From Pseudoxanthomonas suwonensis (lineage in GTDB: Bacteria > Pseudomonadota > Gammaproteobacteria > Xanthomonadales > Xanthomonadaceae), in assembly GCA_030535605.1 (NCBI GenBank), contig JAUNRQ010000006.1:1-54356 (forward strand): 54,356 nt of DNA, given 5' to 3'. The position numbers were made by a program, and so were the translations under genes. Within the stretch, counting starts at the first letter, position 1. Every line of letters begins with the position of its first letter. The notes below the pieces were generated by a model. The model worked only from the letters and a program-made list of their open reading frames with translations, searched no databases and was not told the origin of the DNA. Positions 10,801 to 29,692 of this stretch are shown here, piece after piece.

Positions 10801-12588
10801 ACCACGTTCCAGTACAACGCCAGCGGGCAACTGACGGCAACGACTCGAAGCAGTGGCGTGGTGACCACCTACGGGTACGACAGCCTGGGGCGCGTGGTCA
10901 GCCGCAGTGCGGGTGGCCAGACGCATGGCTTCGCGTATGACAGTTGCACCAACGGCAAGGGGCGGTTGTGCACGGTGACCGATCCGAGCGGGGTCATCGG
11001 CTACAACTACTCTCCGGAAGGCCTGCTGCTGTCGCAATCCCAGAGCATTGCCGGCAGCGGCATTGCCTTTGGTCAGTTTTATGCCTACGACAGCAGCGGG
11101 CGCCTGACCGGCATCAGCTATCCGGGCGGGGTTTCCGTCGGGTATGGCTACGGGCGCGGACGGCTCACCACCATGACCGCCAAGGTCGGCAGCGCAACGC
11201 ACAACGTGCTGACCAACATCTCGCACCAGCCGTTCGGGCCGGCGATTGGCTGGACGCACGGCAACGGGCTGACCCGAACGGCCACGCTGGATCTGGATCG
11301 TCGAATGACCGCGCTGCACACCCGCAACGGCTCCAGCAACGTGCAGGCATTGGCCTACGCCTTCGATGCCAACGACCGGATCAGCAAGATCACCAACAGC
11401 GCACGCCCGGCAGCGACCCAGACCTATGGCTACGATGCTCTGGACCGCCTGACGGCGGTCACCTCGGCCCTGGGCAACCAGTCCTTTGCCTGGGATGCCA
11501 ACGGCAACCGCGTCCAGCATGTTGCTGCCGGGGTGACCTCCAGTCTGGGATATTCAGCCAGCAGCAACCAACTGCAATGGCTGACGGGTGCCGGTGCAGC
11601 CACGCGTTCCTTCAACCATGATGCCGATGGCAACATCACGGCATCGGGGGGCATCAGCTACGCCTACGATGGCTTCAACCGCATGATCCGGGCCAACAGC
11701 GGTGGCGTCGTCACGCAGTACCGGGTCAATGCCCTGGGGCAGCGCAATTACAAGCGGGTCGGCACCAACGGCACGGCCTACCTGACCGGCCCCAGCGGGC
11801 AGCTGGAGGTGGAGTACAACTGGGGCGGTGCCGGTTGGACGCACTACCTGCGGTTCGGCGGTCAGGTGGTAGGACTGGTGCGGGGTGGTCAGTTGCATGC
11901 CGTCCACAACGATCACCTGGGCCGACCGGAGCTGGTGACCAACAGCAGCAAGGCGGTGGTCTGGCGTGCCGACAACCAGGCGTTCGACCGCACCGTCACG
12001 CACGATGCCATCGGCGGGTTCAACATCGGATTTCCCGGCCAGTACCACGATGCGGAAACCGGCAACTGGAACAACGGGTTCCGGGATTATGATGCCAGCA
12101 TCGGCAGGTACCTGCAGTCCGACCCGATCGGGCTGGCGGGCGGGTTGAATACGTATGCGTATGTTCGTGGAAACCCGATTTCATTCGTCGACCCGCTAGG
12201 GTTGACTGAGTGTGACATTGCAGCCGCCTATATGGCTGCTCGAACGATCAACAAAGACTTATTCTTTGGCGACGGGCCGCCGTTGGCTACTATTTCCAGG
12301 GATACCCCAAATATCAGTGGCGAAGCGCGAATAAGGGGATTGAATTCCAGCTTCGACAACAGGATTCATCTTAACGAGAGGTTTTTGGATGCTCTAAGTG
12401 TTGGGTCTTTAGTGGAGTTGCTTAATACGGTTATTCATGAAGCACTTCATTTTACTCGCCCACTCCACCTTCAAACAAAGGATCATGATTATGATCACGA
12501 CTACATCTTTCCGGAGTCCGCTGTTCGTACGGGTAAGACCATGAGGGAATTTGAAAAGGAGCGGGGGAGGTGCGGATGCAATATCTAA
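7843..12588 (+). CDS. Secreted RHS-repeat protein with zincin-like toxin tip (tip A)
   Basis: A 1,581-residue polymorphic toxin. Start ATG 7843 has AAGGAG six bases upstream. Order: signal/TM segment GALLVALLFVILGAFPASLK; DUF6531-type segment from about residue 113 (NPIVYSTGNKVEFETDFTSE); YD/RHS repeats; an NBR1-Ig-like domain at about 716-832 (from TWVPTDSAAF to SSNVRVTVH); more RHS repeats; the core motif RYLQSDPIGLAGGLNTY then YVRGNPISFVDPLGL ending near residue 1454. The 127-residue tip contains HEALH (residues 1532-1536), a zinc-protease HExxH motif. There is no PAAR domain, so export is more likely Sec-dependent than by fusion to a type VI spike. Proline/glycine linkers flank the Ig domain. 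The tip, not the core, lies within the duplicated unit. Confidence 0.93.
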   Translation: MSVLARGSDSSHFGTRGCRPLTDLTGALLVALLFVILGAFPASLKAREGVCWQVDKSYVDSKGVHVILETRCYYWDDGFGGVRDVGFGGGSGTVANSGDQGQPTQDNDPEIDCEHQAGNPIVYSTGNKVEFETDFTSEGEMGLYLSRTYNHYWSGVGLFGQHWLSNFDYSLTSSGGGVNAANLWLQRPDGRRIKFIRKASGRWEEDKAQAIAYITLAGSVYTHHSEDGRVERYNLNGFVTRVANRQGVGWDFTYSNNYLQRVTHTSGRHVQFTWSSGRLIRVTDPAGNQYNYGYTANAFGAGRHRLASVTLPALPATTVQYHYTDNRFPGALTGKSYNGVRYSTFAYDANGRAVLSEHAGGVDRYTFSYELAQSAPLPPPPPTPPPGGGCDPSTGICTLPQSVGGAFPLLAMRPAAGGGGTVRRVVQTNPLNKKTTYEFENGRLIATLGHASTHCPAARKDIGYDANGYPTVAKDFNGNETITIHNAKGQLIEKREAAGTPAERRFLYAWGANNRIVRETLVGHLETTWTYDGNDRLVSISRKNLTANGVANQVQTTTFAYTSHASGLTASIRVDGPLPGAGDSMKRVFATNGAMVRVENGLGHATIYQNHDALGLPGKITGPNGDVHELTYDARSRLVRERRYPTGTAADTTYSYDSAGLLARMTSPDGHYREWEYANNRRLMAMREPEGGNDFAVVRFTYDAMGNIIQTDISKDTWVPTDSAAFASQVVPSSMAAGQSYSVRVAMRNSGDTTWSAGGGYVLGSQNPANNSHWGLSRVALPANVPPGGTVSFNFTAKAPATAGVYNFQWRMLKGSTWFGASSSNVRVTVHAAPVDPPPGGGWCDPETGICWNPQGGGGVHGAAERSTQMPLATHSTLIHRQRAEYDELGRVRVQLGNNGQRVTYSYDHNGNVRTATNALGHTTTYVYDALNRLVESRDPLNGTTRLQYDKADNVVAVIDPRNKATTYQFDGFGQLWQQVSPDTGTTTFQYNASGQLTATTRSSGVVTTYGYDSLGRVVSRSAGGQTHGFAYDSCTNGKGRLCTVTDPSGVIGYNYSPEGLLLSQSQSIAGSGIAFGQFYAYDSSGRLTGISYPGGVSVGYGYGRGRLTTMTAKVGSATHNVLTNISHQPFGPAIGWTHGNGLTRTATLDLDRRMTALHTRNGSSNVQALAYAFDANDRISKITNSARPAATQTYGYDALDRLTAVTSALGNQSFAWDANGNRVQHVAAGVTSSLGYSASSNQLQWLTGAGAATRSFNHDADGNITASGGISYAYDGFNRMIRANSGGVVTQYRVNALGQRNYKRVGTNGTAYLTGPSGQLEVEYNWGGAGWTHYLRFGGQVVGLVRGGQLHAVHNDHLGRPELVTNSSKAVVWRADNQAFDRTVTHDAIGGFNIGFPGQYHDAETGNWNNGFRDYDASIGRYLQSDPIGLAGGLNTYAYVRGNPISFVDPLGLTECDIAAAYMAARTINKDLFFGDGPPLATISRDTPNISGEARIRGLNSSFDNRIHLNERFLDALSVGSLVELLNTVIHEALHFTRPLHLQTKDHDYDHDYIFPESAVRTGKTMREFEKERGRCGCNI
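12154..12176 (+). other. Putative attachment site (left), RHS core/tip junction
   Basis: TATG, then CG, then TATGTTCGTGG and AAACCC. The same 23-bp sequence, apart from the two variable bases, occurs at 20679-20701 (CG) and 29204-29226 (GC), and in the orphan RHS at 14340-14362 and 22865-22887 (GC). At the three unit boundaries the sequence to the left changes exactly at or before the first TATG. It encodes Y-x-Y-V-R-G-N-P of RHS proteins. Confidence 0.6.
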
Positions 12589-13175
12589 GTAGATTTTTCG
12601 CCATTCTTGCTGGTCTTCTATTTTGCAGTGGAGTTTATGCGGCCGATTGCCTGATTGTGAAGGAGGCTTCAATTGTTGATCGGTTCGAACTGGTACGGGC
12701 TACGGATGATTTTGAACGCATGTTGCAGATTGCTAATCATGGGCATGTTTTAACGCGTGGCTCAGGGGTTGTTTTTGTCTACCGGGATTTTGAGGAGATG
12801 GGCGGGATAGATTCTGCAGCCTTTGCAAAGATTACCTTTCCGATTGATAGTCATGAAGATGGAGTTTATTTGATTGAAGGTATGCATGTGACGGTTGGCG
12901 CGTCGGGTTTTGTGCGCTCCGGAAACTTCTCTCGAGTATTGGGGGCAAGTGGCCATCTGGTATTCCAAACAAAAGATGGTCGGCTTAATGCTGACGCTTT
13001 CATTTACGGGGTTGAGGTTGGTCTTTCGGCCCATGAAGAAAGGGGGGGTGGTGGTTTCCGTAAGGCATTCTCTTGCAGTGTTGCCTTTGTTGGTGTAGAT
13101 GAGCTGAATTCTTGGTTCGGCGCGCCCGGTCGGGGGGACTCTTTTTATTACAAGCAACTTCGTCCTGCTGATTAG
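12576..13175 (+). CDS. Putative immunity protein A, exported
   Basis: A 199-residue protein starting MQYLSRFFAILAGLLFCSG with a Sec signal peptide and likely cleavage at VYA-AD. ATG 12576 has GGGGGAGG just upstream; the frame also opens at GTG 12570. It overlaps the end of the RHS tip by 13 bp, the usual position for a cognate immunity gene. No known domain is recognised. The gene is clearly more A+T-rich than the RHS core. The immunity role is inferred from position and export signal, and the periplasmic location would suit a protease-like toxin acting in the envelope. Confidence 0.7.
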   Translation: MQYLSRFFAILAGLLFCSGVYAADCLIVKEASIVDRFELVRATDDFERMLQIANHGHVLTRGSGVVFVYRDFEEMGGIDSAAFAKITFPIDSHEDGVYLIEGMHVTVGASGFVRSGNFSRVLGASGHLVFQTKDGRLNADAFIYGVEVGLSAHEERGGGGFRKAFSCSVAFVGVDELNSWFGAPGRGDSFYYKQLRPAD

Positions 13176-13205
13176 TCGGGCATTTGATATGCTCCGGGAC
13201 ATTAA

Positions 13206-14795
13206 ATGGATTGCGGAAAGTCGCCCTCGCAGGTCGCCGCGCTGCCGGCGGGTGGCTCCGCCAGCCACACCTACCTGCATGATGCCGCCGGCCGGCTCAC
13301 GGGCGTGGGGTATCCGGGTGGCGTGGGGGTGGGGTACGGCTACCTCAACGGGGTCCTGCGCGTGGTCACCAGCACCGTGGGCGGCGCGCCGGTACCGATC
13401 GCCAACGAGATCGCGCATGAGCCGTTCGGTGGCATTCGCAGTTGGACCTACGGCAACGGGCTGACGCGCGTGCAACAGCGTGACCTGAACGGCCGGCTGA
13501 CCGAGATCGCCACCCGCAACGGCAGCAGTCCCTTGCAGCGCCTGACCTATGCCTACGACGTGGCCGACCGCATAACCGGCATCACCAATGCGGTGCACGG
13601 CACCCTCAGTCAGAGCTGCGGCTACGACGCGCTGTCACGGCTGACGTCGGTCACTGCCAGCGGGGCCAACCAGAGCTTCGCCTGGGATGCCAACGGCAAC
13701 CGCAGCAGCCATGTCTGGGCGGGTGCCACGGACGGCTACACCACGGCCAGCACCGGCAACCGCTTGCTGGCGATCACCGGCTCGCGGGCCACCAGTTACG
13801 GTTACGATGCGGCAGGCAACACCCTGAATGGTGAAGGCATGCAGTTCAGCTACAACGCATTCGGCCGCCTGGCCACGGCCACCAAGGCCGGTGTCACCAC
13901 CACCTACGCCATCAATGCGCTGGGTGTGCGGGTGCACAAGAAGGTCGGCACCGGTGCGCATCACTGGTTCAGCCACGGCCCCGCGGGGCAATTGCTGGGT
14001 GAACACCAGGGTGGGGCATGGACTCATTACGTGCGCCTGCCCGACGGTACGCCCCTGGCGCGGATCCGCGGCGGGCAGGTGGCGATGATCCACACCGATC
14101 ATCTGGGTCGGCCGGAGGTCGTGACCGACAGCGCCAAGGCGGTGACGTGGCGGGCCAGCAACGGGGCGTTTGACCGCACGGTGACGCTGGACAGCATCGG
14201 CGGCCTGAACCTGGGGTTCCCGGGGCAGTACCACGACAGCGAGACGGGTTTGGCGTACAACCATTTCCGCACGTACAACCCGCGGACCGGGCGGTATCTG
14301 GAGAGCGATCCGATCGGGTTGGCGGGTGGGTTGAATACGTATGGCTATGTTCGTGGAAACCCAATATCGCTAGTTGATCCGCTGGGATTGGCGGATATGG
14401 TGCTGCTTGCTCCCGGAGCGCCCGGACATACTTTTGCGAACAATCTGAATCCGCCAGGTGTCTATTCAGTGGTTGCGCATGCGAATCCATGGGGCGTCAG
14501 AGATGGCATAACTGGGAATCTCCTTTCCCCTGCGGACTTGGCGGCAAAGATAAAAGCTGATCCAAATTACAAGCCGGGCACCACAGTTGAACTGTATGCC
14601 TGCAGGACTGGACAAGAGGATTTCGGTCAGCAGTTGGCAAACGAACTGGGCGCGAATGTTCGTGCGCCAAATCAATTCTTATTCGGGTATAGCAGCGGAC
14701 GCTTTGTCTTTGCCGGGCATAACGCCCCGCCTAATGGGTATCCGGACATGAACAATCTGGGGCAGTTCATCTTGTTCACGCCGGGTGGGCCATGA
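13206..14795 (+). CDS. Orphan RHS C-terminal fragment with cysteine-peptidase-like tip B
   Basis: An open frame of 529 residues that lacks the N-terminal two thirds of an RHS protein. From about residue 24 it aligns with the repeat region of the complete RHS (YLHDAAGRLTGVGYPGG against YAYDSSGRLTGISYPGG) and ends with the core LAGGLNTYGYVRGNPISLVD and then PLGL. The tip (from about residue 399) has a histidine in YSVVAHANPWG (about 425) and a cysteine in TVELYACRTGQEDFG (about 466). That spacing and context recall clan CD/C80-like cysteine peptidase domains, which is a suggestion only. ATG 13206 has no convincing ribosome site, so this may be a silent, displaced tip. Confidence 0.75.
   Translation: MDCGKSPSQVAALPAGGSASHTYLHDAAGRLTGVGYPGGVGVGYGYLNGVLRVVTSTVGGAPVPIANEIAHEPFGGIRSWTYGNGLTRVQQRDLNGRLTEIATRNGSSPLQRLTYAYDVADRITGITNAVHGTLSQSCGYDALSRLTSVTASGANQSFAWDANGNRSSHVWAGATDGYTTASTGNRLLAITGSRATSYGYDAAGNTLNGEGMQFSYNAFGRLATATKAGVTTTYAINALGVRVHKKVGTGAHHWFSHGPAGQLLGEHQGGAWTHYVRLPDGTPLARIRGGQVAMIHTDHLGRPEVVTDSAKAVTWRASNGAFDRTVTLDSIGGLNLGFPGQYHDSETGLAYNHFRTYNPRTGRYLESDPIGLAGGLNTYGYVRGNPISLVDPLGLADMVLLAPGAPGHTFANNLNPPGVYSVVAHANPWGVRDGITGNLLSPADLAAKIKADPNYKPGTTVELYACRTGQEDFGQQLANELGANVRAPNQFLFGYSSGRFVFAGHNAPPNGYPDMNNLGQFILFTPGGP
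14340..14362 (+). other. RHS junction motif inside orphan RHS
   Basis: Same 23-bp junction motif as at the unit boundaries, with GC at the variable positions. It is preceded by RHS core DNA (TTGAATACG), not by element DNA, so it is an unoccupied site of the same type. A second identical one is at 22865-22887. Confidence 0.55.
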
Positions 14796-15205
14796 AGCCT
14801 CTTGCATCATTGCTGTTCTTTGGGGCTTTGCTCGCCGTGTCTGGAGGTTGTCATTCGACAGAGCCAGAGAAGCCGGACTTTTCTTGTGACGGTGAGCTTT
14901 CTTGTGGGCAGCTCGAAGAGCTGACTGAGAGCGCATTGAATGGTTCCGCTAACGCGGCCCTTGACCTGTTTTGGGCGTCTCTCGACAAAGGGGAGAAAGA
15001 GGAGGCGCTTTATTGGGCCCAAATCGCAATGGAGAACGGAAGTGCTGCAGGCCGGCGTAATTACGCGTCCCTGCTCAGTGAAAAAGGGGACGCTAAATCT
15101 CTGGCAAGAGCCCGATATCATCTGCGAATGCTAGTTAGCCAAGGATACGAAGGCGCAGATGTGCTTCTCGGAGCAGTTGAGCGCAAGTTGGCAGAGAGCC
15201 CGTAA
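14792..15205 (+). CDS. Putative immunity protein B, lipoprotein with Sel1-like repeats
   Basis: A 137-residue protein with a lipoprotein signal (SLLFFGALLAVSGGC, lipobox SGGC). The mature part has helical repeats resembling Sel1/TPR units (NGSANAALDLFWASLDKGEK, then ALYWAQIAMENGSAAGRRNYA). Sel1-like lipoproteins often accompany toxin tips as immunity proteins. The ATG overlaps the stop of tip B (ATGA), so translation is coupled. Target binding is not shown. Confidence 0.7.
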   Translation: MKPLASLLFFGALLAVSGGCHSTEPEKPDFSCDGELSCGQLEELTESALNGSANAALDLFWASLDKGEKEEALYWAQIAMENGSAAGRRNYASLLSEKGDAKSLARARYHLRMLVSQGYEGADVLLGAVERKLAESP

Positions 15206-15224
15206 CTGCTGCCCTATGATGATC

Positions 15225-15254
15225 GAAGCCCCGCACTGCGGGGCTTCTCTTTTA
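15225..15254 (+). terminator. Rho-independent terminator after immunity B
   Basis: GAAGCCCCGC and GCGGGGCTTC form a perfect 10-bp stem with an ACT loop (15225-15247), followed by TCTCTTTT. It closes the tip B/immunity B transcript before the convergent regulator gene. Confidence 0.85.
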
Positions 15255-15276
15255 GCCGCTGCTGTTGCCGTTGCTG

Positions 15277-15654
15277 TCAGCTATGCAGTTCGCCGACGAT
15301 CTGCTTGGTGCGGTGCTTGACGATCATGCCGTCGAGCATGGCCTTGATGGCTTGGCGGTCTTCGGGCGGGAGTTGCCGCACGGCTTCAAATTGCAGCTTG
15401 AGGTCGTCGCCCGGCCCGCGCTCGTCGGGATCGAAGATCAGGGTGTCGGCCGAGACGGCCAGGGCGATGGCCAGCTTGCGGATGACCTCCAGCGTGGGCT
15501 GGGTGTCGCCCTTCTCGTAACGCTGAATCTGCGTCAGGTGCACGCCCACCAGTTCGGCGAGCGCCTGCTGGGTGAGGGTCTGTTGCTTGCGCAGGGCGGC
15601 GAGGCGTTGCGGGAAGGCCATCAGCAGCACATCCGGGGTGAGGTGTGCGGCCAC
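15277..15654 (-). CDS. XRE-family transcriptional regulator of the element
   Basis: A 125-residue DNA-binding protein with an XRE helix-turn-helix: RLAALRKQQTLTQQALAELV then GVHLTQIQRYEKGDTQPTLE. The C-terminal tail has PPEDRQAIKAMLDGMI. The GTG at 15654 is chosen because AGGAG lies nine bases upstream on the minus strand; ATG 15621 is a shorter alternative that starts just before the HTH. It is transcribed divergently from the primase-integrase genes, and a palindrome lies in between. Such an arrangement is typical of a repressor that controls the replication/integration genes of a mobile element; that role is inferred. Confidence 0.85.
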   Translation of the reverse strand: MAAHLTPDVLLMAFPQRLAALRKQQTLTQQALAELVGVHLTQIQRYEKGDTQPTLEVIRKLAIALAVSADTLIFDPDERGPGDDLKLQFEAVRQLPPEDRQAIKAMLDGMIVKHRTKQIVGELHS

Positions 15655-15681
15655 TGTAGGGGTCTCCTGCGGGGATGCTGG

Positions 15682-15717
15682 TTGAAAAGTAGCATATACG
15701 CTGTTACAAATACAGCG
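15682..15717. promoter_or_regulatory. Divergent promoter with palindromic operator
   Basis: On the plus strand TTGAAA (15682-15687) and TACAAA (15705-15710) are 17 bases apart, a plausible promoter for the primase gene. A dyad CGCTGT / ACAGCG with a 7-base spacer (15699-15717) covers the -10 element, and the outer bases GTAG and CTAC extend it imperfectly. It is a likely binding site for the neighbouring XRE regulator. Predicted from sequence only. Confidence 0.55.
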
Positions 15718-15758
15718 CATCTACGGCTTGACAGCTTTTGCCCCGAAGGAGGGTTCCG

Positions 15759-18700
15759 ATGGCCCGTATCCCCGAGTCCGAGATCGAGCGGCTGAAGGCC
15801 GAGGTGTCGTTGCAGCGGCTGGTGGAGGCCAAGGGTGTCAAGCTGGCACGGCAGGGCAAGGACTGGCTTGGGCGCTGCCCGTTCCACGACGACCGCACGC
15901 CGTCGCTGGTGGTATCCCCGGCCAAGAACCTGTGGCATTGCCTGGGCGCGTGCGCCATGGGCGGCACGGTGATCGACTGGGTGATGAAGGCCGAAGGGGT
16001 GTCGTTCCGGCATGCGGTGGAGCTGCTGCGCAACGATGCCCCGCTGACCGGGCCGGTGGTGCGTCAGGCGACGGTGCCGAAGCTGGCCGCGCCGGTGGAT
16101 GCCGATGCCGATGATGCGTCGGCGCTGGCGCAGGTGATCGACTACTACCATGCGACCTTGAAACAGAGCCCCGAGGCGCTGGCGTACCTGGCCTCGCGCG
16201 GGCTGGAGGATGCGGCGCTGATCGACCGCTTCCGGTTGGGCTTCGCCAACCGCACGCTCGGGCTGCGGCTGCCGGAGAAGAACCGGAAGGCCGGCGCGGA
16301 AATCCGCACCCGCCTGCAACGGCTCGGCGTGCTGCGCGAGAGCGGCCACGAGCACTTCAACGGCTCGCTGGTGGTGCCGGTGTTCGATGCCGCCGGGAGC
16401 GTGGTCGAGGTGTACGGCCGCAAGATCACGCCGAACCTGCGGCCGGGGACGCTGCAGCACCTGTACCTGCCGGGGCCGCACCGGGGCGTGTTCAACCGCG
16501 AAGCCCTTGTCTCACCGGAAATCATCCTCACAGAATCGTTGATCGACGCACTGACGTTCTGGAATGCCGGCTATCGCAACGTCACCGCCGCCTATGGCGT
16601 GAACGGCTTTACCGGCGAACACGCGGCGGCGCTGCGCGAGGCCGGCACACAGCGCGTGCTGATCGCCTACGACCGTGACGCTGCCGGCGACGAGGCCGCC
16701 GCCAAGCTGGCCGAATCCCTGATCGCGGATGGCATCGAGTGCTATCGCATCCAGTTCCCGAAGGGGATGGACGCGAACGAATACGCCTTGAAGGTGACGC
16801 CTGCGGCGAAGTCGCTGGGTGTGGCGATCCGCAAGGCCGAATGGCTCGGCCAGGGCAAGCCAAAAGCGGTCATCAGTACGGAGTGTGTCGCTTCGGATGA
16901 CATGCCGGCGGCGGATACGGCTTCTTCCTTAGTGGCTGCTGTTGAAGAAGAACCCGCAGCTAAAGAAAACGCCCTCGATGCCGGGCCTGTCGAACCCTTG
17001 CCTGCTTCGCCTGTACCGATGTTGCCTGCGGTGCCGGTGGAGATGGGCGAGCGCGACGTGACGCTGACGCTCGGCGAACGCCGCTATCGGGTGCGTGGGC
17101 TGGCGAAGAACCTGGCTTACGACACGTTGAAGGTGAACCTGCTGGTGTCGTGTGGGGAACGGTTCTACGTGGACACGCTCGACCTGTACGCGGCGCGTGC
17201 GCGGGCCAGCTACACGACGCAGGCGGCGGTGGAGTTGGGGGTGGCCGAGGATGCGATCCGGGCCGATCTTGGGCGGGTGCTGTTGCAGTTGGAGACGTTG
17301 CAGGATCAGACGATCCGGCAAACCCTCGCCCCCGCACCGGCGGAACCTGCGCTGTCGCCGGAGCTGGAAGCGGCGGCGCTCGACCTGCTGCGTGCGCCTG
17401 ATCTGGCGCAGCGCATCGTGCGCGACGTGTCGGCGGTGGGCGTGGTCGGGGAGGACGGCAATGCGCTGGTGGGCTATCTGGCGGCGGTCTCGCGCAAGCT
17501 GGACAAGCCGCTGGCGGTGCTGATCCAGTCCACCAGCGCGGCGGGCAAATCGACCCTCATGGACGCGCTGCTGTCGCTGATGCCGGAACACGACCGTGTT
17601 CACTACTCGGCAATGACCGGGCAATCGCTGTTCTACATCGGCGAAGGCGACCTGAAACACAAAATCCTCGCCATCGCGGAAGAAGAAGGCGTGCGACAAG
17701 CCGCCTATGCGTTGAAGCTGTTGCAGAGCCAGGGCGAACTGACCATCGCTTCGACGGGCAAAGACCCGGTCACGGGCAAGCTGGTGACGGAGGAATACCG
17801 GGTCGAAGGCCCGGTGATGCTGCTGTTGACCACCACGGCCATCGACATCGACGAGGAACTGCTGAACCGCTGCGTGGTGCTGACGATCAACGAGAGCCGG
17901 GAGCAGACGGCGGCGATCCATGCGCGCCAGCGGCAGGCGCGGACGCTGGCGGGCCTGCTGGCGGGCAAGGACGCCGAGCGCATCCGGGACGTGCATCGGG
18001 CCGCGCAAACGCTGCTGCGGCCGGTGGCGGTGGTGAACCCGTATGCCGAGGCGTTGACGTTCCGCAGCGAATCGACCCGGATGCGCCGGGATCACGCCAA
18101 ATACCTGACGCTGATCGACGCGATCGCGTTCCTGCACCAGCACCAGCGGCCGGTGCGCACGGCGATGGTGGCCGGCCATGCCATCGAATACGTCGAGGTC
18201 ACGCGCGAGGACATTGCGCTGGGGAACCGGCTGGCCGGCGAGGTGTTGGGGCGTTCGCTGGACGAGTTGCCGCCGCAGACGCGGCGGGTGCTGTCGCTGA
18301 TCGTCGGCCTGGTCGAGGCCCGTATGCACGAGCAGGCGATCCCGCGTTCGGCGGTGCGGTTCACGCGCAAGGAACTGCGGGCGGTGGCCGGGATCACCGA
18401 CACGGCGCTGCGGCTGCACCTGGAACGCCTCGTGGAACTGGAATACCTGCTCCCCCACCGCGGCAGGGCTGGTCAGCGGTTCGTGTACGAACTGCTGTTC
18501 GATGGCGACGTGGCGGCGGACGGGCCGCAGTTGATCGGGCTGATCGACGTGGCGGCGCTGGAATCCACGGCTACGACGGCGAACTGCGCACCCCCGGCGG
18601 CCGACCTCGCACCCCGTTCGCACCCCGAAAACACCCCGCTTGCACCCACCTTGCAAGGCCGGAAAATCCCCGCAACCCCTTGTGCGCAGGCGGGTTCTTC

Positions 18701-19840: not shown

Positions 19841-19914
19841 CCGACGACGAACTGCGCCTGCTGGAAGCGCGCTTGAGGGCGTGCGAGCGCGACGCCGACG
19901 TTGGCGCGGCTTAA
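19837..19914 (+). CDS. Possible 25-residue peptide after the integrase
   Basis: A short frame (MTDDELRLLEARLRACERD...) overlaps the integrase stop by ATGA, so it could be translated by coupling. Its stop codon lies inside the first hairpin of the structured right end. No family is recognised. It may be a truncated start of a lost downstream gene. Confidence 0.35.
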   Translation: MTDDELRLLEARLRACERDADVGAA

Positions 19915-21113: not shown

Positions 21114-21700
21114 GTAGATTTTTCGCCATTCTTGCTGGTCTTCTATTTTGCAGTGGAGTTTATGCGGCCGATTGCCTGATTGTGAAGGAGGCTTCAATTG
21201 TTGATCGGTTCGAACTGGTACGGGCTACGGATGATTTTGAACGCATGTTGCAGATTGCTAATCATGGGCATGTTTTAACGCGTGGCTCAGGGGTTGTTTT
21301 TGTCTACCGGGATTTTGAGGAGATGGGCGGGATAGATTCTGCAGCCTTTGCAAAGATTACCTTTCCGATTGATAGTCATGAAGATGGAGTTTATTTGATT
21401 GAAGGTATGCATGTGACGGTTGGCGCGTCGGGTTTTGTGCGCTCCGGAAACTTCTCTCGAGTATTGGGGGCAAGTGGCCATCTGGTATTCCAAACAAAAG
21501 ATGGTCGGCTTAATGCTGACGCTTTCATTTACGGGGTTGAGGTTGGTCTTTCGGCCCATGAAGAAAGGGGGGGTGGTGGTTTCCGTAAGGCATTCTCTTG
21601 CAGTGTTGCCTTTGTTGGTGTAGATGAGCTGAATTCTTGGTTCGGCGCGCCCGGTCGGGGGGACTCTTTTTATTACAAGCAACTTCGTCCTGCTGATTAG
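21101..21700 (+). CDS. Putative immunity protein A, copy 2
   Basis: Identical in sequence to the copy at 12576-13175: Sec signal peptide, unknown mature domain. It follows a displaced tip A here, so its expression would rely on read-through from the element rather than from the RHS promoter. Confidence 0.7.
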   Translation: MQYLSRFFAILAGLLFCSGVYAADCLIVKEASIVDRFELVRATDDFERMLQIANHGHVLTRGSGVVFVYRDFEEMGGIDSAAFAKITFPIDSHEDGVYLIEGMHVTVGASGFVRSGNFSRVLGASGHLVFQTKDGRLNADAFIYGVEVGLSAHEERGGGGFRKAFSCSVAFVGVDELNSWFGAPGRGDSFYYKQLRPAD

Positions 21701-21730
21701 TCGGGCATTTGATATGCTCCGGGACATTAA

Positions 21731-23320
21731 ATGGATTGCGGAAAGTCGCCCTCGCAGGTCGCCGCGCTGCCGGCGGGTGGCTCCGCCAGCCACACCTACC
21801 TGCATGATGCCGCCGGCCGGCTCACGGGCGTGGGGTATCCGGGTGGCGTGGGGGTGGGGTACGGCTACCTCAACGGGGTCCTGCGCGTGGTCACCAGCAC
21901 CGTGGGCGGCGCGCCGGTACCGATCGCCAACGAGATCGCGCATGAGCCGTTCGGTGGCATTCGCAGTTGGACCTACGGCAACGGGCTGACGCGCGTGCAA
22001 CAGCGTGACCTGAACGGCCGGCTGACCGAGATCGCCACCCGCAACGGCAGCAGTCCCTTGCAGCGCCTGACCTATGCCTACGACGTGGCCGACCGCATAA
22101 CCGGCATCACCAATGCGGTGCACGGCACCCTCAGTCAGAGCTGCGGCTACGACGCGCTGTCACGGCTGACGTCGGTCACTGCCAGCGGGGCCAACCAGAG
22201 CTTCGCCTGGGATGCCAACGGCAACCGCAGCAGCCATGTCTGGGCGGGTGCCACGGACGGCTACACCACGGCCAGCACCGGCAACCGCTTGCTGGCGATC
22301 ACCGGCTCGCGGGCCACCAGTTACGGTTACGATGCGGCAGGCAACACCCTGAATGGTGAAGGCATGCAGTTCAGCTACAACGCATTCGGCCGCCTGGCCA
22401 CGGCCACCAAGGCCGGTGTCACCACCACCTACGCCATCAATGCGCTGGGTGTGCGGGTGCACAAGAAGGTCGGCACCGGTGCGCATCACTGGTTCAGCCA
22501 CGGCCCCGCGGGGCAATTGCTGGGTGAACACCAGGGTGGGGCATGGACTCATTACGTGCGCCTGCCCGACGGTACGCCCCTGGCGCGGATCCGCGGCGGG
22601 CAGGTGGCGATGATCCACACCGATCATCTGGGTCGGCCGGAGGTCGTGACCGACAGCGCCAAGGCGGTGACGTGGCGGGCCAGCAACGGGGCGTTTGACC
22701 GCACGGTGACGCTGGACAGCATCGGCGGCCTGAACCTGGGGTTCCCGGGGCAGTACCACGACAGCGAGACGGGTTTGGCGTACAACCATTTCCGCACGTA
22801 CAACCCGCGGACCGGGCGGTATCTGGAGAGCGATCCGATCGGGTTGGCGGGTGGGTTGAATACGTATGGCTATGTTCGTGGAAACCCAATATCGCTAGTT
22901 GATCCGCTGGGATTGGCGGATATGGTGCTGCTTGCTCCCGGAGCGCCCGGACATACTTTTGCGAACAATCTGAATCCGCCAGGTGTCTATTCAGTGGTTG
23001 CGCATGCGAATCCATGGGGCGTCAGAGATGGCATAACTGGGAATCTCCTTTCCCCTGCGGACTTGGCGGCAAAGATAAAAGCTGATCCAAATTACAAGCC
23101 GGGCACCACAGTTGAACTGTATGCCTGCAGGACTGGACAAGAGGATTTCGGTCAGCAGTTGGCAAACGAACTGGGCGCGAATGTTCGTGCGCCAAATCAA
23201 TTCTTATTCGGGTATAGCAGCGGACGCTTTGTCTTTGCCGGGCATAACGCCCCGCCTAATGGGTATCCGGACATGAACAATCTGGGGCAGTTCATCTTGT
23301 TCACGCCGGGTGGGCCATGA
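21731..23320 (+). CDS. Orphan RHS fragment with tip B, copy 2
   Basis: Identical to 13206-14795: RHS repeats without N-terminus, core motif, and a tip with the His/Cys pair in AHANPWG and LYACRTG. Overlaps the following immunity gene by ATGA. Confidence 0.72.
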   Translation: MDCGKSPSQVAALPAGGSASHTYLHDAAGRLTGVGYPGGVGVGYGYLNGVLRVVTSTVGGAPVPIANEIAHEPFGGIRSWTYGNGLTRVQQRDLNGRLTEIATRNGSSPLQRLTYAYDVADRITGITNAVHGTLSQSCGYDALSRLTSVTASGANQSFAWDANGNRSSHVWAGATDGYTTASTGNRLLAITGSRATSYGYDAAGNTLNGEGMQFSYNAFGRLATATKAGVTTTYAINALGVRVHKKVGTGAHHWFSHGPAGQLLGEHQGGAWTHYVRLPDGTPLARIRGGQVAMIHTDHLGRPEVVTDSAKAVTWRASNGAFDRTVTLDSIGGLNLGFPGQYHDSETGLAYNHFRTYNPRTGRYLESDPIGLAGGLNTYGYVRGNPISLVDPLGLADMVLLAPGAPGHTFANNLNPPGVYSVVAHANPWGVRDGITGNLLSPADLAAKIKADPNYKPGTTVELYACRTGQEDFGQQLANELGANVRAPNQFLFGYSSGRFVFAGHNAPPNGYPDMNNLGQFILFTPGGP

Positions 23321-23730
23321 AGCCTCTTGCATCATTGCTGTTCTTTGGGGCTTTGCTCGCCGTGTCTGGAGGTTGTCATTCGACAGAGCCAGAGAAGCCG
23401 GACTTTTCTTGTGACGGTGAGCTTTCTTGTGGGCAGCTCGAAGAGCTGACTGAGAGCGCATTGAATGGTTCCGCTAACGCGGCCCTTGACCTGTTTTGGG
23501 CGTCTCTCGACAAAGGGGAGAAAGAGGAGGCGCTTTATTGGGCCCAAATCGCAATGGAGAACGGAAGTGCTGCAGGCCGGCGTAATTACGCGTCCCTGCT
23601 CAGTGAAAAAGGGGACGCTAAATCTCTGGCAAGAGCCCGATATCATCTGCGAATGCTAGTTAGCCAAGGATACGAAGGCGCAGATGTGCTTCTCGGAGCA
23701 GTTGAGCGCAAGTTGGCAGAGAGCCCGTAA
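23317..23730 (+). CDS. Putative immunity lipoprotein B, copy 2
   Basis: Identical to 14792-15205: lipobox SGGC and Sel1-like helical repeats. Confidence 0.7.
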   Translation: MKPLASLLFFGALLAVSGGCHSTEPEKPDFSCDGELSCGQLEELTESALNGSANAALDLFWASLDKGEKEEALYWAQIAMENGSAAGRRNYASLLSEKGDAKSLARARYHLRMLVSQGYEGADVLLGAVERKLAESP

Positions 23731-23749
23731 CTGCTGCCCTATGATGATC

Positions 23750-23779
23750 GAAGCCCCGCACTGCGGGGCTTCTCTTTTA
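23750..23779 (+). terminator. Rho-independent terminator, copy 2
   Basis: Same stem-loop and T tract as at 15225-15254. Confidence 0.85.
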
Positions 23780-23801
23780 GCCGCTGCTGTTGCCGTTGCT
23801 G

Positions 23802-24179
23802 TCAGCTATGCAGTTCGCCGACGATCTGCTTGGTGCGGTGCTTGACGATCATGCCGTCGAGCATGGCCTTGATGGCTTGGCGGTCTTCGGGCGGGAGTTG
23901 CCGCACGGCTTCAAATTGCAGCTTGAGGTCGTCGCCCGGCCCGCGCTCGTCGGGATCGAAGATCAGGGTGTCGGCCGAGACGGCCAGGGCGATGGCCAGC
24001 TTGCGGATGACCTCCAGCGTGGGCTGGGTGTCGCCCTTCTCGTAACGCTGAATCTGCGTCAGGTGCACGCCCACCAGTTCGGCGAGCGCCTGCTGGGTGA
24101 GGGTCTGTTGCTTGCGCAGGGCGGCGAGGCGTTGCGGGAAGGCCATCAGCAGCACATCCGGGGTGAGGTGTGCGGCCAC
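23802..24179 (-). CDS. XRE-family regulator, copy 2
   Basis: Identical to 15277-15654. Two copies of the repressor gene would double its dose relative to a single integrated unit. Confidence 0.85.
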   Translation of the reverse strand: MAAHLTPDVLLMAFPQRLAALRKQQTLTQQALAELVGVHLTQIQRYEKGDTQPTLEVIRKLAIALAVSADTLIFDPDERGPGDDLKLQFEAVRQLPPEDRQAIKAMLDGMIVKHRTKQIVGELHS

Positions 24180-24206
24180 TGTAGGGGTCTCCTGCGGGGA
24201 TGCTGG

Positions 24207-24242
24207 TTGAAAAGTAGCATATACGCTGTTACAAATACAGCG
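24207..24242. promoter_or_regulatory. Divergent promoter/operator, copy 2
   Basis: Same -35/-10 pair and CGCTGT/ACAGCG dyad as at 15682-15717. Confidence 0.55.
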
Positions 24243-24283
24243 CATCTACGGCTTGACAGCTTTTGCCCCGAAGGAGGGTTCCG

Positions 24284-27200
24284 ATGGCCCGTATCCCCGA
24301 GTCCGAGATCGAGCGGCTGAAGGCCGAGGTGTCGTTGCAGCGGCTGGTGGAGGCCAAGGGTGTCAAGCTGGCACGGCAGGGCAAGGACTGGCTTGGGCGC
24401 TGCCCGTTCCACGACGACCGCACGCCGTCGCTGGTGGTATCCCCGGCCAAGAACCTGTGGCATTGCCTGGGCGCGTGCGCCATGGGCGGCACGGTGATCG
24501 ACTGGGTGATGAAGGCCGAAGGGGTGTCGTTCCGGCATGCGGTGGAGCTGCTGCGCAACGATGCCCCGCTGACCGGGCCGGTGGTGCGTCAGGCGACGGT
24601 GCCGAAGCTGGCCGCGCCGGTGGATGCCGATGCCGATGATGCGTCGGCGCTGGCGCAGGTGATCGACTACTACCATGCGACCTTGAAACAGAGCCCCGAG
24701 GCGCTGGCGTACCTGGCCTCGCGCGGGCTGGAGGATGCGGCGCTGATCGACCGCTTCCGGTTGGGCTTCGCCAACCGCACGCTCGGGCTGCGGCTGCCGG
24801 AGAAGAACCGGAAGGCCGGCGCGGAAATCCGCACCCGCCTGCAACGGCTCGGCGTGCTGCGCGAGAGCGGCCACGAGCACTTCAACGGCTCGCTGGTGGT
24901 GCCGGTGTTCGATGCCGCCGGGAGCGTGGTCGAGGTGTACGGCCGCAAGATCACGCCGAACCTGCGGCCGGGGACGCTGCAGCACCTGTACCTGCCGGGG
25001 CCGCACCGGGGCGTGTTCAACCGCGAAGCCCTTGTCTCACCGGAAATCATCCTCACAGAATCGTTGATCGACGCACTGACGTTCTGGAATGCCGGCTATC
25101 GCAACGTCACCGCCGCCTATGGCGTGAACGGCTTTACCGGCGAACACGCGGCGGCGCTGCGCGAGGCCGGCACACAGCGCGTGCTGATCGCCTACGACCG
25201 TGACGCTGCCGGCGACGAGGCCGCCGCCAAGCTGGCCGAATCCCTGATCGCGGATGGCATCGAGTGCTATCGCATCCAGTTCCCGAAGGGGATGGACGCG
25301 AACGAATACGCCTTGAAGGTGACGCCTGCGGCGAAGTCGCTGGGTGTGGCGATCCGCAAGGCCGAATGGCTCGGCCAGGGCAAGCCAAAAGCGGTCATCA
25401 GTACGGAGTGTGTCGCTTCGGATGACATGCCGGCGGCGGATACGGCTTCTTCCTTAGTGGCTGCTGTTGAAGAAGAACCCGCAGCTAAAGAAAACGCCCT
25501 CGATGCCGGGCCTGTCGAACCCTTGCCTGCTTCGCCTGTACCGATGTTGCCTGCGGTGCCGGTGGAGATGGGCGAGCGCGACGTGACGCTGACGCTCGGC
25601 GAACGCCGCTATCGGGTGCGTGGGCTGGCGAAGAACCTGGCTTACGACACGTTGAAGGTGAACCTGCTGGTGTCGTGTGGGGAACGGTTCTACGTGGACA
25701 CGCTCGACCTGTACGCGGCGCGTGCGCGGGCCAGCTACACGACGCAGGCGGCGGTGGAGTTGGGGGTGGCCGAGGATGCGATCCGGGCCGATCTTGGGCG
25801 GGTGCTGTTGCAGTTGGAGACGTTGCAGGATCAGACGATCCGGCAAACCCTCGCCCCCGCACCGGCGGAACCTGCGCTGTCGCCGGAGCTGGAAGCGGCG
25901 GCGCTCGACCTGCTGCGTGCGCCTGATCTGGCGCAGCGCATCGTGCGCGACGTGTCGGCGGTGGGCGTGGTCGGGGAGGACGGCAATGCGCTGGTGGGCT
26001 ATCTGGCGGCGGTCTCGCGCAAGCTGGACAAGCCGCTGGCGGTGCTGATCCAGTCCACCAGCGCGGCGGGCAAATCGACCCTCATGGACGCGCTGCTGTC
26101 GCTGATGCCGGAACACGACCGTGTTCACTACTCGGCAATGACCGGGCAATCGCTGTTCTACATCGGCGAAGGCGACCTGAAACACAAAATCCTCGCCATC
26201 GCGGAAGAAGAAGGCGTGCGACAAGCCGCCTATGCGTTGAAGCTGTTGCAGAGCCAGGGCGAACTGACCATCGCTTCGACGGGCAAAGACCCGGTCACGG
26301 GCAAGCTGGTGACGGAGGAATACCGGGTCGAAGGCCCGGTGATGCTGCTGTTGACCACCACGGCCATCGACATCGACGAGGAACTGCTGAACCGCTGCGT
26401 GGTGCTGACGATCAACGAGAGCCGGGAGCAGACGGCGGCGATCCATGCGCGCCAGCGGCAGGCGCGGACGCTGGCGGGCCTGCTGGCGGGCAAGGACGCC
26501 GAGCGCATCCGGGACGTGCATCGGGCCGCGCAAACGCTGCTGCGGCCGGTGGCGGTGGTGAACCCGTATGCCGAGGCGTTGACGTTCCGCAGCGAATCGA
26601 CCCGGATGCGCCGGGATCACGCCAAATACCTGACGCTGATCGACGCGATCGCGTTCCTGCACCAGCACCAGCGGCCGGTGCGCACGGCGATGGTGGCCGG
26701 CCATGCCATCGAATACGTCGAGGTCACGCGCGAGGACATTGCGCTGGGGAACCGGCTGGCCGGCGAGGTGTTGGGGCGTTCGCTGGACGAGTTGCCGCCG
26801 CAGACGCGGCGGGTGCTGTCGCTGATCGTCGGCCTGGTCGAGGCCCGTATGCACGAGCAGGCGATCCCGCGTTCGGCGGTGCGGTTCACGCGCAAGGAAC
26901 TGCGGGCGGTGGCCGGGATCACCGACACGGCGCTGCGGCTGCACCTGGAACGCCTCGTGGAACTGGAATACCTGCTCCCCCACCGCGGCAGGGCTGGTCA
27001 GCGGTTCGTGTACGAACTGCTGTTCGATGGCGACGTGGCGGCGGACGGGCCGCAGTTGATCGGGCTGATCGACGTGGCGGCGCTGGAATCCACGGCTACG
27101 ACGGCGAACTGCGCACCCCCGGCGGCCGACCTCGCACCCCGTTCGCACCCCGAAAACACCCCGCTTGCACCCACCTTGCAAGGCCGGAAAATCCCCGCAA

Positions 27201-27322
27201 CCCCTTGTGCGCAGGCGGGTTCTTCTTCCTTAGCTGCTGCTGTTGAAGAAACCCCACTTCTCCCGGTGCCCCGCGAGCCGCGTCGTAGTCGTAACGGTGC
27301 CGCCGTGGCGGCGGTGCGCTGA
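24284..27322 (+). CDS. CHC2/Toprim primase-helicase, copy 2
   Basis: Identical to the 1,012-residue protein at 15759-18797; all zinc, Toprim and Walker A residues are kept, so both copies look functional. Confidence 0.85.
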   Translation: MARIPESEIERLKAEVSLQRLVEAKGVKLARQGKDWLGRCPFHDDRTPSLVVSPAKNLWHCLGACAMGGTVIDWVMKAEGVSFRHAVELLRNDAPLTGPVVRQATVPKLAAPVDADADDASALAQVIDYYHATLKQSPEALAYLASRGLEDAALIDRFRLGFANRTLGLRLPEKNRKAGAEIRTRLQRLGVLRESGHEHFNGSLVVPVFDAAGSVVEVYGRKITPNLRPGTLQHLYLPGPHRGVFNREALVSPEIILTESLIDALTFWNAGYRNVTAAYGVNGFTGEHAAALREAGTQRVLIAYDRDAAGDEAAAKLAESLIADGIECYRIQFPKGMDANEYALKVTPAAKSLGVAIRKAEWLGQGKPKAVISTECVASDDMPAADTASSLVAAVEEEPAAKENALDAGPVEPLPASPVPMLPAVPVEMGERDVTLTLGERRYRVRGLAKNLAYDTLKVNLLVSCGERFYVDTLDLYAARARASYTTQAAVELGVAEDAIRADLGRVLLQLETLQDQTIRQTLAPAPAEPALSPELEAAALDLLRAPDLAQRIVRDVSAVGVVGEDGNALVGYLAAVSRKLDKPLAVLIQSTSAAGKSTLMDALLSLMPEHDRVHYSAMTGQSLFYIGEGDLKHKILAIAEEEGVRQAAYALKLLQSQGELTIASTGKDPVTGKLVTEEYRVEGPVMLLLTTTAIDIDEELLNRCVVLTINESREQTAAIHARQRQARTLAGLLAGKDAERIRDVHRAAQTLLRPVAVVNPYAEALTFRSESTRMRRDHAKYLTLIDAIAFLHQHQRPVRTAMVAGHAIEYVEVTREDIALGNRLAGEVLGRSLDELPPQTRRVLSLIVGLVEARMHEQAIPRSAVRFTRKELRAVAGITDTALRLHLERLVELEYLLPHRGRAGQRFVYELLFDGDVAADGPQLIGLIDVAALESTATTANCAPPAADLAPRSHPENTPLAPTLQGRKIPATPCAQAGSSSLAAAVEETPLLPVPREPRRSRNGAAVAAVR

Positions 27323-28365
27323 TGCCGCGCCGGGGCCAGCGGATCAAGACGCGCAAGGCGGCGGCGGTGAAGCCGTCGGGGCCGCGCACGCGCCGCGATG
27401 ACCCGCTGGCCGCGCATCCGTTGACCCGTTACATGCACGCGCACTTCGAGTGGATGCTCACGCACGGCTACAGCGCGGACACGGTGCGGGCGCGCAGGAT
27501 CGCGCTGCGGCGGTTCATCGGCTGGTGCGCCGAACGCGACCTGAACGACGTGCGGGCGATCACCGCGCCGGTGCTGGAACGCTACCAGCGGCACCTGTTC
27601 CTGTATCGCAAGCCGGACGGGCAGCCGCTGACGCTGGGCTCGCAGCACGGGTGCCTGGCCCCGCTCAAGACCTGGTTCAAGTGGCTGGTGCGCGAGCGGC
27701 ACATCGCGTTCAACCCGGCCTCGGAGTTGCAGTTGCCGAAACAACCCAAGCGCCTGCCGCGCAGCCTGCTGGCGGTCGCCGATGTGGAGGCGATCCTGCA
27801 CGAAGCCGAACCGGCAACGCCGGCGGGCCTGCGCGACCGGGCGATGCTGGAACTGCTGTACGCGACGGGTCTGCGGCGGATGGAGGTACCGGCGTTGGCG
27901 CGCTACGACGTCGACCTGAACCGCCGGCTGGTGTTCGTGCGCGAGGGCAAGGGGCGCAAGGATCGCGTCGTCCCGATGGGCGAACGGGCGGCGGCGTGGC
28001 TGGACAAGTACCTGGTCGAGGCGCGGCCGCAGTTGCTGGCGGCCGACACTGACGCCTTGTTCGTGACCGACTACGGCGAGCCGATCAGCCCGGCGTGGCT
28101 GGCGGAGAAGGTGAAGCGGTACATGGCCTTCGCCGGGATCGACCGGCCGGGGGCGACGCACCTGTTCCGGCACGCCTGCGCCACGCACATGCTGGAGAAC
28201 GGGGCGGATATCCGCTACATCCAGGACATGTTGGGCCACGCGCACCTGGCGACGACGGAGATCTATACGCACGTGGCCATCGACAAGTTGCAGAGGATCC
28301 ACGCGGCGACGCATCCAGCGGGGAGGCTGGAACGCCGCACGGCCGACACGGAGGTGATGCCATGA
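27322..28365 (+). CDS. Tyrosine recombinase, copy 2
   Basis: Identical to 18797-19840, with intact R-K-H-R-H-Y residues. Confidence 0.92.
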   Translation: MPRRGQRIKTRKAAAVKPSGPRTRRDDPLAAHPLTRYMHAHFEWMLTHGYSADTVRARRIALRRFIGWCAERDLNDVRAITAPVLERYQRHLFLYRKPDGQPLTLGSQHGCLAPLKTWFKWLVRERHIAFNPASELQLPKQPKRLPRSLLAVADVEAILHEAEPATPAGLRDRAMLELLYATGLRRMEVPALARYDVDLNRRLVFVREGKGRKDRVVPMGERAAAWLDKYLVEARPQLLAADTDALFVTDYGEPISPAWLAEKVKRYMAFAGIDRPGATHLFRHACATHMLENGADIRYIQDMLGHAHLATTEIYTHVAIDKLQRIHAATHPAGRLERRTADTEVMP

Positions 28366-28439
28366 CCGACGACGAACTGCGCCTGCTGGAAGCGCGCTTG
28401 AGGGCGTGCGAGCGCGACGCCGACGTTGGCGCGGCTTAA
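28362..28439 (+). CDS. Possible 25-residue peptide, copy 2
   Basis: Same short coupled frame as at 19837-19914. Confidence 0.35.
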   Translation: MTDDELRLLEARLRACERDADVGAA

Positions 28440-28990
28440 CCGCTGCGCGGTTCAAGCCGACGCCGCATCGCTCCGTCGGGCATGGTCGCGATCGGACAGC
28501 AAGAACGCGTCGGTCAGCGCCCTGCTGCGCAGCGCGCTGTGCGTTACCTGTCCGGGGGTAAGTCGGCCTGCGGCCGACTTAACATAACGCTGCGTTACGC
28601 AAACCGCCGGGCTGTCACGGCGCTTGCGATGCTGCAGTGGGCCAAGGGCGGGTTCGCAGGCAAGCGCCGCGCCAGCCCGGCGCTTCGCGTAACAAGCGTT
28701 CATGTCTTGCGCCCCCGGAAGAGCAAGAGCCAGTCAACCAACCTTGGGTGTGGCCGCGTGTGCTGCGCACACCCGCCCACGGTGTGTTGGTGCGCGCCGC
28801 TGCGCGTCGCGCCCGCTCCGGCCAGGCCTGCGCGGTTGCGCGTGGGTTGGCCGGCATCGCTTCGGCCAGTATCCCGCCACGCGCTTCGTGCGCGTGCTGC
28901 GCACGCCCACAGAGCCTGCGTGCTACGCGCCCACGCTCGCGCCTGACCGTCCCCGGCGCGTCGGCTTAACCGCTGCGCGGTTCAAGCCGA
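28433..28990 (+). repeat. Hairpin-rich right end, copy 2
   Basis: Same structured, gene-free region as 19908-20465, with both 28-bp hairpin repeats (28433-28460 and 28963-28990). Confidence 0.7.
28582..28705. repeat. Large imperfect hairpin, copy 2
   Basis: Same four-arm structure as 20057-20180. Confidence 0.6.
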
Positions 28991-29122
28991 ACGCGGATCG
29001 TTGCGCAGTGGTTCCGGGCCAAAGGCAAGGGCGGCGGCTAAAAGGAAAGTGCTTGACGGCGGCCGCGGGGTGGGCCAAAAAGGCGCATCAAGGGAATTTT
29101 ACGAAGCCCGGAACCCGCCTCA

Positions 29123-29692
29123 ATGGCCGCAGCGTTGCTAAGTCCAAGTCGCGTCAGGGAAAAACGCCGCCGGGTACGACGGCGCACGTCAGGGCGAACT
29201 ATCTATGGCTATGTTCGTGGAAACCCAGTTAATTTCACTGATCGGCTAGGCTTGGATTGCGACCAGCGTGGTTGCTGGGTCACGCCCGAGCAGCAAGCAT
29301 TTGCGAACTCCGGTAACTATTCTGCCTACTACCAGTCCGCATGTGGCGGTGGAGATATGTACGCTTGCGCTGCTGGAAGAGTGGCAGCAAATCAGGGTTG
29401 GGCTGCCAACTTTACGAACAGACTCTTGCGAGGCGGCCTTAAGAAAAATGGCGCATCTGACAAGGAGTGCGAAACCGCGATGGAGGGCATTCGCGAAGAT
29501 TTAGCGAAGGCGCATGCGGATGCGCTGAGTGGGGGATCACCACAAAGCCCCATCCGGCTTACTGGCGATCAGATTTCCGCTTTCCACCATGATGTTTTTT
29601 CGCAGCACTACGGCGGTCAGTATTTGATATTTGGCGGAGACATACCCGGTGCATGGGCTACAGGCTGGTGCACTGCGCCCGGGTGCTGGTAA
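29123..29692 (+). CDS. Displaced RHS tip C fused to element-end codons
   Basis: An ATG in the element end opens the same 27-codon leader as at 20598 and continues in frame into YGYVRGNPVNFTDRLGL and a cysteine-rich tip (CDQRGCWVTPEQQAFA, ACGGGDMYACAAGRVAANQG, ending WCTAPGCW). The core motif has DRLGL instead of DPLGL. I recognise the tip layout from RHS-associated proteins of this bacterial family but know no activity; histidines in FHHDVFSQH are candidates. If the element model is right, this was the C-terminus of the RHS protein before integration. Confidence 0.65.
   Translation: MAAALLSPSRVREKRRRVRRRTSGRTIYGYVRGNPVNFTDRLGLDCDQRGCWVTPEQQAFANSGNYSAYYQSACGGGDMYACAAGRVAANQGWAANFTNRLLRGGLKKNGASDKECETAMEGIREDLAKAHADALSGGSPQSPIRLTGDQISAFHHDVFSQHYGGQYLIFGGDIPGAWATGWCTAPGCW
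29204..29226 (+). other. Putative attachment site (right)
   Basis: Junction motif with GC at the variable positions, preceded by element-end DNA (GAACTATC) and followed by tip C codons. With 12154-12176 it would form the pair of sites that flank the whole insertion. Confidence 0.6.

Follow-up and report, generated by a model that had tools for sequence, protein, structure and literature searches.

Tandem copies of a probable integrative element at the core/tip junction of an RHS toxin gene in Pseudoxanthomonas suwonensis

The RHS locus and its repeated unit

We analyzed a stretch of 54,356 nt from Pseudoxanthomonas suwonensis (GCA_030535605.1, contig JAUNRQ010000006.1, positions 1-54,356), referred to as a whole as the window, in which two tandem copies of an 8525-bp unit lie between the core of an RHS toxin gene and a toxin tip. 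The genome is a draft assembly of 86 contigs that is 81.6% complete. The delivery part of the main toxin, the RHS core (7726..12153, plus strand), is matched by Pfam RHS_repeat (E 6.7e-68) and by the TIGR03696 core domain at residues 1430-1493. Its open reading frame (ORF 7726-12588) passes the start of the first unit in frame, leading from the core end YAYVRGNPISFVDPLGL into a tip that we call tip A. Copy 1 (12154..20678) and copy 2 (20679..29203), both on the plus strand, follow one another directly, and another tip, tip C (29204..29692, plus strand), lies beyond the second. The order is core, A-unit, A-unit, tip C, where the conserved end (END) of the first unit precedes tip A again and that of the second precedes tip C.

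The original prediction held that an integrative element exchanges the toxin tip at this locus, and described a repeated unit that runs from the core/tip junction to another copy of the same junction, with a different tip behind it. The repeat proves to be exact: positions 12154-20682 and 20679-29207 have the same 8529 bases, at a period of 8525, and identity drops to background outside either end. The unit starts inside the RHS core motif NTYAYVRGNPISFVDPLGL and so carries the last 17 core codons (YAYVRGNPISFVDPLGL) as well as the tip. Tip C, presumably the displaced former tip, opens with the junction motif and continues as unrelated sequence, its likeness to tip A being confined to the junction.

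Three junctions, all read on the plus strand, delimit the units. At the left, attL-like junction (12142..12176) the core (...GAATACG) meets TATGCGTATGTTCGTGGAAACCC; at the middle, attP-like junction (20600..20701) an END (...GGGCGAACTATC) meets TATGCGTATGTTCGTGGAAACCC; and at the right, attR-like junction (29125..29226) an END (...GGGCGAACTATC) meets TATGGCTATGTTCGTGGAAACCC. The joints read GAATACG/TATGCG, GAACTATC/TATGCG, and GAACTATC/TATGGC, and all continue with TATGTTCGTGGAAACCC, so that they have in common TATG and, two bases later, the 17-bp word TATGTTCGTGGAAACCC. Because TATG occurs at all three, a crossover fits this tetranucleotide. The junctions are direct repeats rather than the inverted repeats of shufflon-type inversion. 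The boundary of the unit is tied to the core/tip junction motif. In the first part of tip C (29204-29254) the protein reads DRLGL, compared with DPLGL in tips A and B.

Each unit has the same set of genes, as read from its ORFs. Tip A (12154..12588, plus strand; 20679-21113 in copy 2), in frame with the core in copy 1, has an HEALH motif and a weak SprT-like Pfam match (E 6e-4, below cut-off), and is followed by putative immunity gene A (12570..13175, plus strand; 21095-21700). An orphan RHS core fragment with tip B (13206..14795, plus strand; TIGR03696 E 8e-24; internal junction motif at 14340; copy 2, 21731-23320) precedes putative immunity gene B (14792..15205, plus strand; 23317-23730). 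Next come a helix-turn-helix (HTH) regulator on the minus strand (15277..15720; Pfam HTH_3 E 3e-16; 23802-24245) and, on the plus strand, a primase with a CHC2 zinc finger, a Toprim domain, and a C-terminal MCM-like AAA+ fold (15756..18797; 24281-27322) and a XerC-like tyrosine recombinase (18797..19840; 27322-28365). Putative immunity gene C (29653..30369, plus strand) lies behind tip C. Neither the minus-strand HTH gene nor the RHS fragment that carries tip B had a place in the original prediction.

The integrase gene expected at the unit end and its primase partner are both as described: the recombinase scores 434 bits against NF002331 (cut-off, 371) and has the R, K, HxxR, H, and Y catalytic motifs, and the primase identity follows from CHC2 and Toprim. 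An intact recombinase and precise boundaries with a short common word, two marks of tyrosine-recombinase integrative elements, are both found in the window. The immunity genes stand on their position behind the tips; Pfam finds no family for any of the three, nor for tips B and C, and the functions of these tips and presumed immunity genes are accordingly putative and assigned from position. An integron integrase was considered and rejected, as TIGR02249 gave 124 of 265 bits and NF011946 76 of 435, far under the cut-offs. Pfam and NCBIfam detect no relaxase or conjugation genes of integrative and conjugative or integrative and mobilizable elements in those unit ORFs that were scanned. The trio of integrase, regulator, and primase known from phage satellites (phage-inducible chromosomal island-like) is present, and no phage packaging genes were seen in the unit.

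The unit closes with a noncoding region (19841..20678) whose last ~120 bp are the conserved END. The claim of a structured end stood in part: a 44-nt sequence with an inverted repeat occurs twice per unit (19907-19950 and 20437-20480), long perfect hairpins are few, and an Rfam search of the window gave no match. END is 84% identical over 122 bp to the end of a Lysobacter pythonis unit, and no homology was found between the noncoding region of the window and that of locus L006 or of E. coli locus L030. An ATG-started frame within END (MAAALLSPSRVREKRRRVRRRTSGRTIY...; 20598-21113 and 29123-29692) continues in frame into the following tip, which might allow translation of a displaced tip in the absence of a core. 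Just past immunity gene C (30526-30716), a short frame resembles by eye the start of an IS30-type transposase.

Empty and occupied junctions and the spread of the cassette

The original prediction called for a core fused in frame to the downstream tip at a junction without the unit, and such a fusion is found in E. coli. In the complete genome of strain ZYB39, two copies 7782 bp apart, with one base different inside the unit, stand behind cdiA in the same core, A-unit, A-unit, C order as in the window. In strain C10, the very tip that follows the two units at the same locus of ZYB39 directly continues the reading frame of the cdiA core. The neighboring genes are common to both strains; the downstream 6230 bp are 99.97% identical from query base 28359, and identity is 96.4% in the core beside the junction and 97.9% on the cdiB side. 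The difference of 2 x 7782 bp begins and ends at GTTGTTGAGAATAAC, the VENN codons, and END and core have only 15 bp in common at the crossover. By sequence comparison, C10 and ZYB39 are the empty and the occupied state of one junction; insertion is seen through this comparison, and excision would be its predicted reverse. The claim that integration and excision switch toxin specificities is upheld to that extent for insertion, with excision as a switch remaining conjectural.

The ZYB39 tip has matches in 12/5426 genomes and is labeled cdiA in four of the five with at least 80% cover, two of which were opened. The ZYB39 unit itself recurs in strain C11 (99.94% over 7809 bp) at a different cdi locus and before a different downstream tip. 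An RHS-type tip, tip Y, starts at one and the same GACCCGATAGGG whether it lies behind a core, as in JNE120442, or behind the END of another unit, as in 200164.

Related loci were gathered by similarity of the recombinase or primase rather than of the toxin, with the sole exception of L102, which was reached via a tip. About 8000 primase relatives pass E 1e-100. The primase is matched in 190 of 72,556 plasmid records (21 of them over at least 80%); genomes with a match, the window's own being counted each time, number 9/369 in the class and 6/398 in the phylum, and a search of genome contigs gave 4 loci. In the loci opened, the primase lies directly upstream of 46 of 48 XerC copies, and the strict junction motif occurs within 3.5 kb downstream of 25 (25/43 where at least 1 kb of sequence is available), compared with 1/47 in a reverse-strand control of the same downstream stretches. 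An RHS- or CDI-type (contact-dependent inhibition) polymorphic-toxin sign, meaning a strict, upstream, or looser junction motif, an annotation, or a Pfam match, stands beside 42 of the 48; two of these (L044 and L094) were called by eye only, and Pfam finds none at L044. The Pfam signs comprise FHA/DUF637 proteins with Tox-HNH-HHH or EndoU tips and one RHS/LysM protein. The expectation that the integrase-primase pair would recur beside other toxin junctions with different tips is therefore borne out, and the proposed target was too narrow: the cassette is found, sometimes in tandem, at CdiA/TpsA as well as RHS toxin loci of other bacteria. In a recombinase tree, 42 distinct rows split from 4 presumed host Xer proteins with branch support 100/99, and RHS- and CDI-type rows cluster, yet neither type forms a single clade. 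The RHS-type XerC-END stretch alone occupies 196 places in 55 of 5426 complete E. coli genomes (median 4 per genome, maximum 6).

Some units carry further genes. Among L011, L029, L030, L036, and L102, the RHS-type enterobacterial units have a SymE-family toxin gene between the immunity gene and the HTH gene, and the CDI-type units have a DinJ/RelE-like pair after xerC. The XerC and primase of genome G149 (L037) are close to those of the window (70% and 63%), and the Leptospira noguchii plasmid (L013) has an 18.8-kb near-repeat.

Repetition takes several forms in these loci. Repeats in Pseudomonas aeruginosa pPA1609-475 and in G737 start out identical but diverge once they reach the primase, and arrays of differing units occur in E. 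coli 200164, EC77, and Paraburkholderia PREW-6R. ENDs are conserved inside each recombinase group; they are near-identical among E. coli CDI units that precede different tips, and likewise among enterobacterial RHS units, so that a single exact boundary is followed by many different tips. At all ENDs compared (the two of the window, L005, E. coli and Salmonella CDI, and enterobacterial RHS), the tip begins at a fixed base with no core left. Core remnants of variable length, absent from these XerC ENDs, are present at some orphan tips that lack their own XerC (window 13206-14795). Draft contigs of L. pythonis (L005) and G737 (L060, L061, L063) start or stop exactly at the junction. In L. pythonis G801, a contig ending in the core overlaps the start of a one-unit contig by ~127 bases (C20/C23; L097, L005), as expected if the assembly graph branches at the junction.

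Smaller cassettes without xerC also end in END. One lies at 11427-12786 of the GXU locus (L028), and a VENN-to-VENN block ending in END is common to C11 and GXU (99.66% over 2384 bp); such blocks occupy L027 23475-25856 and L028 22064-24447 and 11427-12786. These small cassettes may be nonautonomous relatives of the unit.

Two unit-like circles have been deposited as plasmids, Shigella SWHIN_104 'unnamed3' (8758 bp) and Lonsdalea N-5-1 'unnamed1' (11,289 bp). The former is collinear with the array of E. coli EC77 across the END junction (98.2% over 8768 columns), and the latter contains a single XerC and two tip modules and lacks an RHS core. Among contigs of at least 5 kb, primase carriers lie on contigs of 5-10 kb in 80/109 cases, compared with 34/88 for a Uup-like ABC protein (Fisher p 1.3e-6), where the sets are 109 of 119 listed primase relatives, the window being left out, and 88 of 119 listed controls, both lists are the best of ~8000 candidates, the gene lengths differ, and any repeat cuts contigs alike. 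The excess of unit-sized contigs is a supportive sign only.

A proposed junction-targeting element and its alternatives

We conclude, with a probability of roughly 0.84, that the two tandem copies in the window are a site-specific integrative element that uses the core/tip junction of polymorphic toxins as its attachment site. The units are probably integrative, self-replicating elements, and the XerC-like recombinase that each encodes is likely to carry out the insertion. In the mechanism we propose, a circular unit would be recombined by XerC into the core/tip junction; the core would thereby be joined in frame to the tip of the element, and the old tip would move downstream intact, behind END. 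Either two insertions at one junction, or a single insertion that was later duplicated, could have given the order in the window. Once a circle is excised, its copying would fall to the primase and the MCM-like helicase part of that protein, under the control of the HTH protein. Toxin specificities would change, or accumulate in a stack, as units excise or further ones insert.

Several observations weigh against this reading. No empty site was found in the species of the window or its relatives, and a XerC search of 60 relatives of the window genome gave a match at E <= 1e-60 in its own genome only. Six of the 48 XerC copies have no nearby toxin sign, namely, G149 (L037), where no toxin gene was recognized in the 20 kb inspected, the Leptospira plasmid (L013), where a diverged HTH-primase-recombinase set adjoins ParA/ParB, and four on contigs of ~6 kb. 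The third-nearest relative, L006, has no END or junction downstream, and no relative was found among IMG/VR viral contigs by this route. The circular Shigella and Lonsdalea records may be collapsed arrays rather than excised replicons. The tandem repeat of the draft genome G530 begins 78 bp upstream of the junction, within the core, and some arrays, in the window at 13206-14340 and in L030 at 10038, retain RHS core remnants of the kind expected from homologous recombination.

The core remnants bear on an explanation in which homologous recombination between them, via episomal circles, displaces the tips, and the XerC and primase genes are passengers. Core-remnant recombination through circles was proposed for Rhs by Jackson et al. 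(2009), and Koskiniemi (2014) shows it in Salmonella, where an rhs gene recombines with its orphan; the repeat at L056 begins in the core. The remnants do indicate that homologous recombination also acts in these arrays. It would, however, explain neither the fixed base at which tips begin nor the core-free END at the compared joints; the ZYB39/C10 crossover offers it only the 15 bp common to END and core, and one XerC family marks the ends in RHS and CDI loci that have no common core. We regard it as very improbable, the least likely of the alternatives weighed here. A scheme in which an integron-like platform captures tips one at a time, as small cassettes with their ENDs, and XerC is the integrase of that platform rather than the element's own, is only slightly less improbable. 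The xerC-less END cassettes, such as GXU 11427-12786 and the block of C11 and GXU, agree with it, but they could equally be nonautonomous relatives moved in trans, whereas XerC and primase lie within the repeated unit and recur with every unit, and the recombinase scores far below the cut-offs of integron-integrase models.

Somewhat easier to entertain, if still unlikely, is that the chromosome lacks the second copy seen in the window, either because a free circle was merged into the assembly or because a single integrated unit was assembled twice. The exact identity of the copies over 8529 bp counts in its favor, as do the state of the draft and the frequency of unit-sized contigs in the primase family. 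Against it stand the near-identical tandem units in the complete genome of ZYB39 and the exact tandem repeat of 6273 bp in G530, another draft. Even as an artifact, it would leave one unit between the core and tip C, and mobility would gain support from a free circle.

Beyond the window, we lean, with distinctly less assurance than for the junction-targeting element itself, toward a wider view in which such units form a widespread, unnamed class of self-replicating elements with the RHS and CdiA/TpsA junction as attachment site. Insertion would re-arm the host, displaced tips would form an immunity archive that excision can reopen, and the same recombinase would move smaller cassettes in trans, providing the missing engine of rhs/cdi tip diversification. 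If so, one mobile element has two delivery systems, RHS and CdiA/TpsA, to parasitize or to arm; VENN-to-VENN cassettes would be explained, and insertion would itself be a change of weapon. A recombinase of the unit that inserts it would explain how RHS and CDI toxins are re-armed, and because its END and target word are defined, the mechanism of tip exchange can be put to the test.

Comparison with known systems

Tyrosine-recombinase integrative elements are known that insert in a coding sequence and bring a 3' end of their own that restores the frame. The units described here resemble them in both respects, whereas the new 3' end encodes another toxin and the host protein changes function; no description of a restored gene end that is another toxin was found in the open-access literature (preprints, bioRxiv, and subscription journals not covered), nor one of the element, its ends, its primase, or joint use of RHS and CDI loci. 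Stacked cassettes and a tyrosine recombinase are features common to integrons, from which the units differ in that their integrase falls outside the IntI type by model score, that every unit has its own, and that the target is a coding junction. In shufflons, the tyrosine recombinase Rci alters the C-terminal tip of a surface protein by inverting resident segments, in contrast to the insertion of foreign units in direct orientation here.

Other precedents come from the toxin systems themselves. The bcpAIOB megacircle transposon of Burkholderia thailandensis (PMC6350997) places CDI genes on a circle-forming element of 210 kb with an IS2-like transposase; as described there, it carries the whole operon, with no tip swap. 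Orphan cdiA-CT/cdiI arrays, the mechanism of which Poole et al. (2011; PMC3150448) called unknown, resemble the present units as VENN-to-VENN modules behind cdiA. Ruhe et al. (2016; PMC4927057) report integrase and transposase genes lying within cdi arrays and suggest site-specific recombination; in their proposal, incoming modules insert in cdiA, displacing older ones, by which the idea was partly anticipated for CDI. The passages of both accounts on these arrays describe neither an element nor an END, a primase, att sites, or a strain pair with an empty site, and they draw no link to RHS. For Rhs, Jackson et al. (2009; PMC2935791) described tips displaced downstream by incoming tips, arrays of dissociated tips, and a postulated circular intermediate. 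The window has the same presumed displacement of an old tip downstream, tip arrays, and a putative circle, and it differs from that account, as set out there, in that the tip moves along with a recombinase, a primase, and a fixed END.

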